From a virus, in IMG/VR virus record IMGVR_UViG_3300030328_001455, positions 1 to 27,702 of that record: 27,702 nucleotides of DNA; one strand, written 5' to 3'. A program made the position numbers and the translations under genes. This document shows, in pieces, positions 20,281-27,702 of the stretch. How positions within the stretch are numbered: position 1 is the stretch's first letter; every line of letters starts with the position of its first letter. The notes below the pieces were generated by a model, which saw only the letters and a list, made by a program, of their open reading frames with translations, was not told the origin of the DNA and ran no database searches.

Positions 20281-21061
20281 CTATAACCTCCTTTATTTTA
20301 TCAAAATCCTTCTCTCGTCTATACTTCAAATCATCTTCAATGTGTAATGCAATCACCTCAGATGGTTCACAATAACTCTTCAACTCTTTAGTGTACTCAA
20401 TAGTTTTACCAAGAGCATCAGGGTCAAGAGCTACAACAACTGTATCAAAAGTATCCAAATACTCTTTGTGTTCTCTCAGTAAGCTAGTTCCTAACAAAGC
20501 TACTCCAGTTACTCCTGCTAATGTTTCCCCAACCACAGTAGCTGATATAACATCTTCCACAACTACGGCTATGCTCTCACTAGGGTTGATGCAGTAGGAA
20601 TAATACTTAGCCTTGCCACCATACTTATACCACTTGGGTTGGGCATTATATAAGGCTCTCCCTATCGCATCTACAATCCTTCCGTTTTGATAGATAGGAA
20701 ATACTGCTCTATTACTTTTACAATCGTACAATAACTCTACCCTCAAATCCCATCTTCTCCTAAACCTCTGAACATAAGAGTTGTTACCATCAGTTATATA
20801 CTCAGGCATCTCAAACTTTCTATCTTTCTCCACTTCGTCTAATCCTTGTATCTTATTCTTTATAGTCTCAACAAGCATTGGAGTCATTGTTGCTCCTTTA
20901 ACGTCACAACTATTCCTGTAGCAGTTGTAGAGTATTAGTCCTTCCTTGTTCGTGGCTGAGAACTTCTTAACTCCGTTGCATACAGGACAATCTATCGTAA
21001 TAGACTCGCCCTCTTTTATGTCAAGACCCTCTATGAACTCTCTTGATGGCTTATGAACCAT
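20264..21061 (-). CDS. DNA primase (zinc-binding plus TOPRIM domains)
   Basis: A 265-residue primase that makes RNA primers for lagging-strand synthesis. An N-terminal zinc site is formed by C25, C28, C47 and C52 (CPVCNG, then YNCYRNSC). The catalytic TOPRIM domain shows E169 (VVVEDVISATVVGE) and D213-x-D215 (VVVALDPDALGK), with a further acidic pair D243/D244. It resembles the primase half of T7-like gp4 proteins in size but has no helicase domain; the helicase is encoded two genes downstream. The ATG has GAGGAG eight bases upstream, and the 5' end overlaps the integrase stop by 11 bases. It lies in the same leftward operon as helicase and polymerase. Confidence 0.92.
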   Translation of the reverse strand: MVHKPSREFIEGLDIKEGESITIDCPVCNGVKKFSATNKEGLILYNCYRNSCDVKGATMTPMLVETIKNKIQGLDEVEKDRKFEMPEYITDGNNSYVQRFRRRWDLRVELLYDCKSNRAVFPIYQNGRIVDAIGRALYNAQPKWYKYGGKAKYYSYCINPSESIAVVVEDVISATVVGETLAGVTGVALLGTSLLREHKEYLDTFDTVVVALDPDALGKTIEYTKELKSYCEPSEVIALHIEDDLKYRREKDFDKIKEVIDGKLY

Positions 21062-22004
21062 TCTGATTCTCCTCTCTCCTTGTTAAAGCATTTGCCGCCG
21101 ATTTGTATGTGTGCCGAATATAGGGTCGCATTGAGTTAGGACTGTTGTGTCCTGATACTGCCATAATCTGAGTAGTGTCTACTCCTGCTTCAACCATCTC
21201 AGTTATAGCCGTTCTCCTCATGTCCATAGCCGTTAATTCTTTCGGCAATCCTGCCTCTTGCTTCACCTTGTTAACCATCTTACTAATGTCCGTATCCGTA
21301 TACATTCTGTAAGAGCCACTTCTAGGGTAGGGGTGAGGTGCTACATACTCTTGAAAACCAAAGTCTTTGTACTGCCTCTCCAACATTCTGTATAGGTGTA
21401 TGTGGATAGGTAGGTGTACCTCTGCTCTCTTCTTGGACTGCTCAAGGTCTAGCCTGTGTTCCTCAAAATTAATGTTATCCCACTTGAGTGAACGCATATC
21501 GCCAATCCTCTGAGCAAAAGAGTATGCCATTTGAACTATAAGACCTATGCTTCTCCACTCATACTTAGTGTATGCCGTATCTGTAAAAAGCCTCACCTGA
21601 TCTACTGTCCACATTACTTTTCTTGGCTTCTCTTTCATCTTCTTCACACCTCGCATAGGGTTACGAAATATTAGTTCCAACTCCTCTGCCATATTAAACA
21701 GAACAGACGTAACAGTTGTTGTTAGGTTAGCCGTTCTAACTCCCCTCTTAACCCATTGTTGGTAGGCAACCTTACAATCAGAAACGCTTATCTTATCTAG
21801 CCTAGTTGTACCTAGCTTCCTAGAGTACGTTACAGTAGTGTTTACTGCTCTGTTAATACAATACTCGTAGTCCTTTTGTGTTCTACTCCTAAGAGCTAAG
21901 AACTGTGGACTTTTAAGGTAATACTTAACTAGATCATTCAAAGTCTTAGGCATTACCTCAGAGCCTGTGTCTTTCTTCTCCATAGTATGTATGATATCAA
22001 ACAA
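21051..22004 (-). CDS. int: Tyrosine recombinase (integrase)
   Basis: A 317-residue site-specific recombinase. It has an N-terminal SAM-like core-binding region (about 20-120; YYLKSPQFLALRSRTQKDYE) and a catalytic domain with R166 (AQRIGDMRSLKW), K191 or K192, R263 in MDMRRTAITEM, H286 (SGHNSPNS) and the nucleophile Y295 nine residues later. The histidine usual in the HxxR motif is Met260 here, a noncanonical substitution. It would join phage and host attachment sites, implying potential lysogeny, or it may resolve genome multimers. The start is TTG at 22004, decided by AGGAG seven bases upstream; internal ATGs at 21983 and 21953 lack such a site. It lies inside the replication operon with no adjacent noncoding gap. 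Confidence 0.92.
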   Translation of the reverse strand: MFDIIHTMEKKDTGSEVMPKTLNDLVKYYLKSPQFLALRSRTQKDYEYCINRAVNTTVTYSRKLGTTRLDKISVSDCKVAYQQWVKRGVRTANLTTTVTSVLFNMAEELELIFRNPMRGVKKMKEKPRKVMWTVDQVRLFTDTAYTKYEWRSIGLIVQMAYSFAQRIGDMRSLKWDNINFEEHRLDLEQSKKRAEVHLPIHIHLYRMLERQYKDFGFQEYVAPHPYPRSGSYRMYTDTDISKMVNKVKQEAGLPKELTAMDMRRTAITEMVEAGVDTTQIMAVSGHNSPNSMRPYIRHTYKSAANALTRREENQNGS

Positions 22005-24587: not shown

Positions 24588-24812
24588 TTAACTCCTATTC
24601 AAATTGTTGTAAGTATTTAATAAAAAAATCTCTAAGTCATCTACCAAATCCCCAAGAGTATCTTGGTTATCGCTGTCAAATAATTCTTTTAATTTGTTTT
24701 CAAACTTTGTTCCCTCATGGACACGTTTGGTATCACGCAATCCATTTGCCTTAATTGTTTCCTTAACATCATTCAAGTTAAAGATAGCATTATTTATATC
24801 CTCAAGTTTCAT
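24588..24812 (-). CDS. Unrecognised small helical protein (74 aa)
   Basis: A 74-residue protein, MKLEDINNAIFNLNDVKETI, largely helical and acidic, with DTLGDLVDDLEIFLLNTYNN near the end. I start it at ATG 24812 because that codon overlaps the preceding stop as TGATG and a GGGGG-type site lies about ten bases upstream; two GTG codons just before are less likely. It could be a dimeric helical bundle. No family is recognised. Confidence 0.58.
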   Translation of the reverse strand: MKLEDINNAIFNLNDVKETIKANGLRDTKRVHEGTKFENKLKELFDSDNQDTLGDLVDDLEIFLLNTYNNLNRS

Positions 24813-25012
24813 CACCACTTACCCCCTGTATTATTTATATCAAGAAAATTAGGTTCATCTTTCAACTCCTCAACTTCTGATAATTTAAAACACAATTCAT
24901 TATCCCAAGTTTCTGCATCTTCATCTGCTATAACCACTTCTGTGGGATATAGTATAACAATCTCACCATAAATCTCTTGGTCAATTACTTTTATTCTGTC
25001 ACCTATCTTCAT
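24812..25012 (-). CDS. Small beta-rich acidic protein (66 aa)
   Basis: A 66-residue protein, MKIGDRIKVIDQEIYGEIVI, with VVIADEDAETWDNELCFKLS. The GDRIKV...GEIV pattern suggests a small SH3-like or KOW-like beta barrel, but this is only a pattern impression. The frame is open 50 codons further upstream; I use ATG 25012 because GAGGAG ends six bases before it, while the upstream stretch lies inside the HTH gene. The stop forms TGATG with the next start. Confidence 0.62.
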   Translation of the reverse strand: MKIGDRIKVIDQEIYGEIVILYPTEVVIADEDAETWDNELCFKLSEVEELKDEPNFLDINNTGGKW

Positions 25013-25241
25013 CTTTAACTCCTCTTGATTTTCCATATTTTTCTGCGTTCTTCGATAACTGTTTAATTTGTTTAGCAATCTTTTCGGCATTGTGAAAAGT
25101 AATTTCAACAATCGGATCGCTTTCAAAGTTTCGATAGTAACTACTTGAGGGAATCCCCGCATGTCTATAAGCTTTCTTCAAATCTATTTTCATTGGACTC
25201 GCTAGTTCTTTCAATTGTTCTTTGTAACTTTTTATCAGCAT
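24999..25241 (-). CDS. Small helix-turn-helix-type protein
   Basis: An 80-residue basic protein. The segment IDLKKAYRHAGIPSSSYYRN has the AYRHAGI-turn-SYYR form of a helix-turn-helix recognition unit as seen in small phage DNA-binding proteins, followed by FHNAEKIAKQIKQL. It may regulate early transcription in this arm; the target is unknown. AAGGA lies eight bases before the ATG. It starts 77 bases inside the previous gene and overlaps the following gene by 14 bases, both in different frames. Confidence 0.62.
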   Translation of the reverse strand: MLIKSYKEQLKELASPMKIDLKKAYRHAGIPSSSYYRNFESDPIVEITFHNAEKIAKQIKQLSKNAEKYGKSRGVKDEDR

Positions 25242-25914: not shown

Positions 25915-25950
25915 AAAAAAAGAGAGAGCCAATATTAAACTGACTCTCTC
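25915..25950 (-). terminator. Intrinsic terminator or attenuator in the leftward operon
   Basis: On the - strand GAGAGAGTC, an 11-base loop and GGCTCTCTC form a nine-pair stem with one G-T wobble, followed at once by seven T residues. It begins 12 bases after the stop of the upstream gene and its T-run abuts the AGGAG of the gene starting at 25901. It should end or reduce transcription before the bulk of the replication genes unless overcome. Confidence 0.88.
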
Positions 25951-27189: not shown

Positions 27190-27423
27190 TCATTTGACAA
27201 ACTTCAATTTTAGATTTCTTGGATCGTCTGCGTGATTAATCCTTCTGAGATGATCAGGACAATTAAACATATCATCAGGATAATTAAACATTTCTTCGCA
27301 CTCATTACAGAAATCACAATCTTCTATTTCTTTCTTTGTTGGCTTGTGTCCACACTCAGAACAAATAACCTGAAAGAATTTCGGTACGTTTAGATCTTCA
27401 TGATTTAAAGTAAAAGATTTCAT
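27190..27423 (-). CDS. Zinc-ribbon protein, first gene of the leftward arm
   Basis: A 77-residue protein, MKSFTLNHEDLNVPKFFQVI, with cysteines at 21, 24, 36, 39 and 42 (CSECGH; CDFCNEC), enough for one zinc ribbon. A second CPDHLRR segment follows, and the C-terminus is basic. As the first gene after the likely early promoter it may bind nucleic acid or a host protein, for example to redirect transcription; this is inference. GGAGAAAGCAAA precedes the ATG, the same 15-base start region as at 25899-25913. Confidence 0.68.
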   Translation of the reverse strand: MKSFTLNHEDLNVPKFFQVICSECGHKPTKKEIEDCDFCNECEEMFNYPDDMFNCPDHLRRINHADDPRNLKLKFVK

Positions 27424-27435
27424 TTTGCTTTCTCC
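27421..27435 (-). repeat. Repeated translation-initiation region, copy 1
   Basis: GGAGAAAGCAAAATG on the - strand at the start of the zinc-ribbon gene, identical to the region at 25899-25913. Confidence 0.75.
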
Positions 27436-27458
27436 ATTTATTGTTTTCGTTAATTAAA

Positions 27459-27487
27459 ATTATACACTACTTTTAAAATAAAATAAA
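27459..27487 (-). promoter_or_regulatory. Likely early leftward promoter
   Basis: A perfect TATAAT (27459-27464 on the - strand) stands about 36 bases before the first leftward ATG. The -35 at 17-base spacing is weak (TTTATT, three of six matches) but lies in A/T runs that could act as an UP-type element. Confidence 0.6.
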
Positions 27488-27531
27488 ACTATTTGTTGCA
27501 GTCATGCAGTAATGGACCTTCTTGAATGTAA

Positions 27532-27612
27532 TTGAACCTTTGCTAAAAAATGCCAGGTGCTTCGCTACTTGGCATTTGTTTAGCAGCAGCATTAAAATGC
27601 TGACAGGTTCAA
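27532..27612. other. Compact three-way-junction inverted repeat
   Basis: TTGAACCT (27532-27539) pairs with AGGTTCAA (27605-27612). Inside lie two hairpins: an 18-pair stem (27541-27558 with 27567-27585; one G-T wobble, one bulged G) and CAGCATT/AATGCTG (27587-27602). Only one or two bases are unpaired at the junction. On the - strand the main loop contains GCGAAGC, a known unusually stable DNA mini-hairpin. The junction can be drawn on either strand, in DNA or RNA. Confidence 0.72.
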
Positions 27613-27644
27613 AAACTAATTTGTTCTTCACCATAAGTAGGATC

Positions 27645-27673
27645 TTGACAAGCTTTCAAAATACTCTGAAAAT
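27645..27673 (+). promoter_or_regulatory. Possible rightward promoter
   Basis: A perfect TTGACA at 27645-27650 followed after 17 bases by GAAAAT (four of six matches to TATAAT). It points out of the window toward the presumed late genes. The -10 lacks the first T, so this is tentative. Confidence 0.35.
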
Positions 27674-27702
27674 CATGGTCAAGGGGTTCATGGTGTTAGA
27701 CA

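Follow-up and report, generated by a model that had tools for sequence, protein, structure and literature searches.

A conserved but accessory branched inverted repeat between the early and late genes of Hodr-like marine podoviruses

The put RNAs of phage HK022 are structured antiterminator leaders, the packaging RNA of phi29 contains a three-way junction, and integron attC sites are folded, single-stranded DNA with bulges, in which structure is conserved rather than sequence. Cruciform-forming inverted repeats are found in regulatory DNA, as outlined in the review PMC3176155, and the early promoters of phage N4 are described in PMC4496689 as hairpins that its virion RNA polymerase recognises. 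The element described here combines a compact fold with a position in a phage control region. It lies in a window of 27,702 nt, which is the entire linear IMG/VR record IMGVR_UViG_3300030328_001455, and no publication on it was found in the literature.

The whole element spans positions 27532–27612 (no strand assigned) and is supported by folding, homologues, covariation and an independently built covariance model. An eight-pair outer stem, P1, with a 5' arm TTGAACCT (27532–27539, plus strand) and a 3' arm AGGTTCAA (27605–27612, plus strand), surrounds a long hairpin, P2 (27541–27585, plus strand), and a short hairpin, P3 (27587–27602, plus strand; CAGCAT..ATGCTG), the CAGC/GCTG core of which recurs in relatives; nearly all junction bases are paired. 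The extent and three-way shape proposed by the sequence-only reading were confirmed by both DNA and RNA folding. As DNA the segment folds at −24.6 kcal/mol (z −6.65) and as RNA at −37.3 (z −6.3), with none of 200 dinucleotide shuffles as stable in either case, and it ranks first in stability among the 81-nt segments of the whole record, both strands included. Three-way topology by itself is not rare: about ten plus-strand spots of the record pass the same geometric test, which asks for 7 or more pairs in the outer stem, but their energies are −16 to −24 kcal/mol versus −38 for the element. The GCGAAGC mini-hairpin that had first been singled out is indeed present, on the minus strand at 27559–27565 (read from 27565), but is not conserved: it occurs in the window copy only (one of six), and the other four long copies carry a TAAA loop. 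A degenerate DNA pattern for the tip, run over viral contigs, gave only chance matches in unrelated DNA, as did a stem pattern.

The same reading had placed the element in a gene-free control region, and this was borne out. No convincing reading frame was found in 27424–27702 of the window, none is open across all element copies, and no conserved frame covers the element; a coding explanation, such as a minus-strand C-terminus of the type GAAAESCPSxLxPGQSxC, was rejected, since from one member to the next the frame is shifted or interrupted by stops. The terminator scan found no intrinsic terminator at the element, and no T run follows the outer stem on either strand.

The window is of mixed affinity. 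Its polymerase and a 1253-aa virion protein resemble those of HMO-2011/Roseobacter CRP phages, and it carries genes for a primase and a tyrosine integrase (21051–22004). At about 25 kb (24800–25100) this HMO-2011/CRP-like body gives way to Hodr-like early genes and the GC content falls to 0.31. Since the last 2.7 kb belongs to the Hodr-like group, the record is either a chimeric contig or a mosaic that arose naturally; the same join was absent from all primase-related loci. Searching with the first early gene led to two other contigs, and searching with the adjoining small-terminase gene to eleven, those two included. The eleven are small podoviruses whose large terminase shares 65% identity with its counterpart in Pelagibacter phage EXVC031P Hodr, the only cultured member of the Hodr-like phages, with SAR11 as host. 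The group encodes Erf/RecE/RusA-like recombination proteins, and no HMO-type polymerase was detected in its fragmentary records. Primase relatives and HMO-2011/CRP phages were rejected as a source of homologous control regions, as they share only the genome body: the 45 primase-related loci gave no match to the window's control region, and the divergent region of CRP-2, CRP-603 and HMO-2011 is different and longer. The annotated-phage collection gave no DNA match, and no relatives of the 160-aa early protein were found.

Several features of these other phages were noted in passing. Around FENKLKELFDS, the window (24673–24707) and L021 (3661–3695) match at 97% identity over 35 bp that belong to different genes in the two phages, possibly a trace of recombination. 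L021, an HMO-2011-type phage, also carries the same intergenic hairpin, TTTACTAAATAGGGGAGTTTTAACAACTCCCTTAACTAGTAA, twice (670–720 and 1800–1845), each time ahead of an early gene. The divergent region of CRP-2 (L068:8941–10149) and that of CRP-603 (L070:7354–8552) are non-coding and 1.2 kb long; the two share a branched inverted repeat, CACAGTTACAAC..TTGTGACTGTG, and that of CRP-603 contains repeated TGTGATCACA motifs.

The element is found in five relatives as well, in the equivalent position, with the first early gene on one side and the small-terminase gene, read in the opposite direction, on the other. Four carry a long form (L079:4824–4909, L082:4823–4909, L084:1340–1424 and L088:162–247; L079 is the same as L075, and L082 as L076), and one a short, 52-nt form (L089:3230–3285). 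The sequences of these five relatives diverge, with the three-way junction retained. Among the copies, P1 appears as TTGAACC/GGTTCAA, TTGGATC/GATCCAA or TTGAATC/GATTCAA, and the tip as GTGG-TAAA-CCAC, GTGC-TAAA-GCAC or GTGA-TAAA-TCAC, so that the tip-closing pair is G-C, C-G or A-T in relatives. Across the five long copies (the window, L079, L082, L084 and L088), 94% of cells are paired, and 8 of 31 pairs are changed on both sides, against a shuffle mean of 3.3 with none of 500 shuffles as high, although with five sequences such counts reflect few independent events. When partners were slid by 1–3 columns, only 0–2 pairs with both-sided changes remained. Pair counts from alignment A7 were left out because it included opposite-strand partial matches. 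Two of the seven P1 pairs and six pairs of P2 are altered on both sides; P3 shows zero compensatory changes among the long copies and is therefore the least supported helix. A covariance model built without the window recovers it (E 3e-9) and also L089 (E 2e-9), the latter having a different palindrome as its long arm and yet retaining the junction.

The sequence-only reading had looked to related phages for compensatory changes, and these are present. Since related phages keep the fold while the letters change in matched pairs, the three-way fold of the element is confirmed as real, and the comparative support, that is, the same architecture in five relatives together with compensatory changes, is decisive. 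In our judgement, base-pair covariation in a phage intergenic region has seldom been demonstrated.

The surroundings of the element are also conserved. In an alignment of twelve sequences, the order outward from the early gene is the start context GGAGAAAGC, a −10-like TANAAT, an A/T-rich tract, TTGCAN4TGCA, the repeats, the element, CCATAAGTAGGATC, TTGACA and the terminase start. The first early gene (27190–27423, minus strand) specifies a cysteine-rich protein of 77 aa, possibly zinc-binding, and the homologues of L075, L076 and the window share 81–86% pairwise identity. The predicted −10 of the early promoter (TATAAT, 27459–27464, minus strand) corresponds to the TANAAT conserved in relatives, and lies exactly 37 bp from TTGCAN4TGCA (27496–27511, plus strand) in 11 of the 11 sequences reaching that motif, which resembles an operator and may act as one. 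Three direct repeats (27512–27538, plus strand) come next, ATGGACC, TTGAATG and TTGAACC, starting at 27512, 27522 and 27532, a pitch of exactly 10 bp that the TTGRAY-like repeats keep in relatives. The third of them, TTGAACC at 27532, doubles as the 5' arm of P1, and the 3' arm is its inverted copy. Beyond the element, the aligned sequences share CCATAAGTAGGATC (27631–27644, plus strand) directly upstream of the late −35, which opens the predicted late (terminase) promoter, TTGACA-17-GAAAAT (27645–27673, plus strand). TTGACA is present in 12 of the 12 aligned sequences and is followed after 17–18 nt by an AAAAT-type −10; the alignment places the end of the window about 9 nt short of the terminase start. 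The gene divergent from the early genes is the small terminase. All promoter assignments were made from sequence only, and on this basis the early and late promoters flank the element, both pointing away from it, and the element appears to lie outside both predicted transcripts.

Three further observations concern the early genes. A conserved early protein of 76–80 aa, encoded at 24999–25241 of the window, might conceivably be of the helix-turn-helix (HTH) kind. The first early gene beside the control region varies between otherwise close relatives (L079–L089), which suggests a cassette slot, and several contigs break there. Within the early operon of the window (25922–25950, minus strand) there is a strong hairpin resembling an intrinsic terminator, GAGAGAGTCAG..TTGGCTCTCTC, with a run of seven T after it.

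Six close relatives (L080, L081, L083 and L085–L087) do not have the element and carry in its place a short sequence with no excess structure. They keep both promoter-like sites where the contig extends that far, and by this sequence comparison the element is accessory, and dispensable at this locus. The existence of such relatives also means that it is not essential for early/late transcription, replication or packaging in the group, unless the short form substitutes for it. They provide a natural presence/absence control, being close relatives with the same flanking promoter-like sites. Further afield, the terminase small subunit matches at 53% in Hodr (L102) and at 58% in L109, and both have a large imperfect palindrome in the interval between early gene and small terminase (L102:3637–3800, z −5.5; L109:2553–2830, z −6.7, where it extends over the early gene's start), and no resemblance in sequence was noted; L110, like L109 a small-terminase relative from genome bins, showed no comparable structure (z −1.4). 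What the Hodr-like marine podoviruses have between their divergent early and late genes is a branched inverted repeat, conserved but accessory, in the control region.

Beyond the fold, the covariation, the position and the presence/absence pattern, which the analysis shows, we infer an action at the DNA level. We tentatively favour a branched inverted repeat acting as DNA to modulate the control region, given that neither transcript seems to include the element and that the third repeat serves as its outer arm. P1 is one TTGRAY-like repeat paired with its own inverted copy and, as the outer stem consists of the same repeat in both orientations, a protein-bound repeat array and an extruded junction would be mutually exclusive. 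Divergent transcription from the two flanking promoters would introduce negative supercoils into the interval, and these could drive extrusion of the junction and thereby alter how active the early promoter is relative to the late one. The covariation, the independent model, the flanking promoters, the third repeat serving as a P1 arm and the lack of an open frame together make this a plausible reading, if one that could well prove wrong, and the palindromes of Hodr and L109 in the same interval count in its favour. Against it, a plus-strand G.U in the five long copies suits RNA, six relatives manage without the element, the flanking promoters are predictions read off the DNA, and the repeat-binding protein and the extrusion are hypothetical. 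Were the element to act as DNA, it would offer a testable case of transcription-driven cruciform regulation. A bolder reading, improbable though worth stating, is that the element represents a class of control elements new for phages: the last copy in the repeat array of a regulator would also form the stem of a three-way junction extruded by supercoiling, giving a DNA-shape early/late switch gained and lost as a cassette.

The main rival to a DNA-level role is a structured RNA, which could be a small RNA that the phage transcribes from a dedicated promoter or a leader (antiterminator-like or protein-binding) at the 5' end of the terminase mRNA, and there is some chance, though not a large one, that this is correct. 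The covariation is of the RNA type, the G.U wobble 27556.27569 of P2 is retained on the plus strand in five of five long copies, and in the window the plus strand is the more stable as RNA (−37.3 versus −33.1 for the minus strand). In L079 and L082, however, the minus strand is slightly more stable, and one L079 pair, A.C on the plus strand, favours the opposite strand. Inspection of the alignment revealed no conserved promoter upstream of the element on either strand, and nothing near a curated Rfam covariance-model threshold was found for the window, L075 or the Hodr region. An RNA role, if correct, would give the Hodr-like phages a previously undescribed family of small RNAs or leaders.

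It is rather unlikely that the element is debris of template switching, in which fold-back copying during replication made the arms and keeps them alike, so that matched changes would need no selection. The right arm of P2, TTGGACAACTTT, does resemble the element-less form TTGGACAAACTTTT, and the other arm could then be an inverted copy; in L089 the spot is taken by a new palindrome of unrelated sequence, and half of the relatives do not have the element. The junction is nevertheless retained even where an arm has been replaced, and mismatches (A.A, C.C, A.C/G.U) persist across copies that frequent arm-to-arm copying would erase, a point that is not decisive.

Two other readings draw on position only. 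A replication origin or single-strand initiation site is unlikely: the divergent control region with its 10-bp repeats and A/T-rich tract would suit one, and cumulative GC skew has an extreme near the right end, but the skew is equally well explained by gene direction, close relatives do without the element, and the replication genes differ between the window and the Hodr-like phages. A packaging (pac/cos) site for the adjoining small terminase, or a hairpin for genome-end processing, is very unlikely, since six close relatives with a 90–95% identical small terminase lack the element; the adjoining divergent gene is that terminase and 4 of 12 contigs end at most 340 nt upstream of it, but contig ends are explained by the variable first early gene as well. 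An N4-type virion RNA polymerase promoter and an integrase attachment site, for which the GCGAAGC tip and the integrase gene of the window speak, are the least likely readings and appear largely refuted, as the tip is unique to the window and no triloop is conserved, a search of the large virion proteins in these incomplete records detected no polymerase of the N4 type (that of 1253 aa has no family match and that of 1297 aa matches an internal virion protein with an endolysin domain), L103 and L105 show no integrase-sized early ORF, making attachment unlikely, and there is no tRNA anywhere in the record.

Compared with the systems described at the outset, the element shares with HK022 put a compact multi-hairpin form near an operon start, in a phage with no detected RNA polymerase of its own, but lies upstream of both predicted promoters. 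Like the phi29 packaging RNA it is a three-way junction beside a packaging function, whereas the phages here use TerS/TerL, relatives with nearly the same TerS have no element, and Rfam gave no match. It resembles attC as folded, bulged DNA conserved through structure, yet is branched, with no GTTRRRY/RYYYAAC boxes in its stems and no integron integrase known here. With the N4 promoters, as far as PMC4496689 presents them, it has in common a small-loop DNA hairpin in a phage control region; it differs in having no conserved triloop and in lying outside the predicted promoters, in phages with no N4-type virion polymerase detected. The cruciform-forming repeats, in the outline given by PMC3176155, are likewise inverted repeats that lie between promoters and that negative supercoiling could extrude; here, however, the arm is three-way branched, the outer arm is common to a 10-bp repeat array, and extrusion is a proposal, the quantities computed being folding energies. 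The kind of element is known, a regulatory inverted repeat or structured element, of which this is a variant by virtue of its branching, its sharing of an arm with a repeat array and its presence/absence polymorphism.
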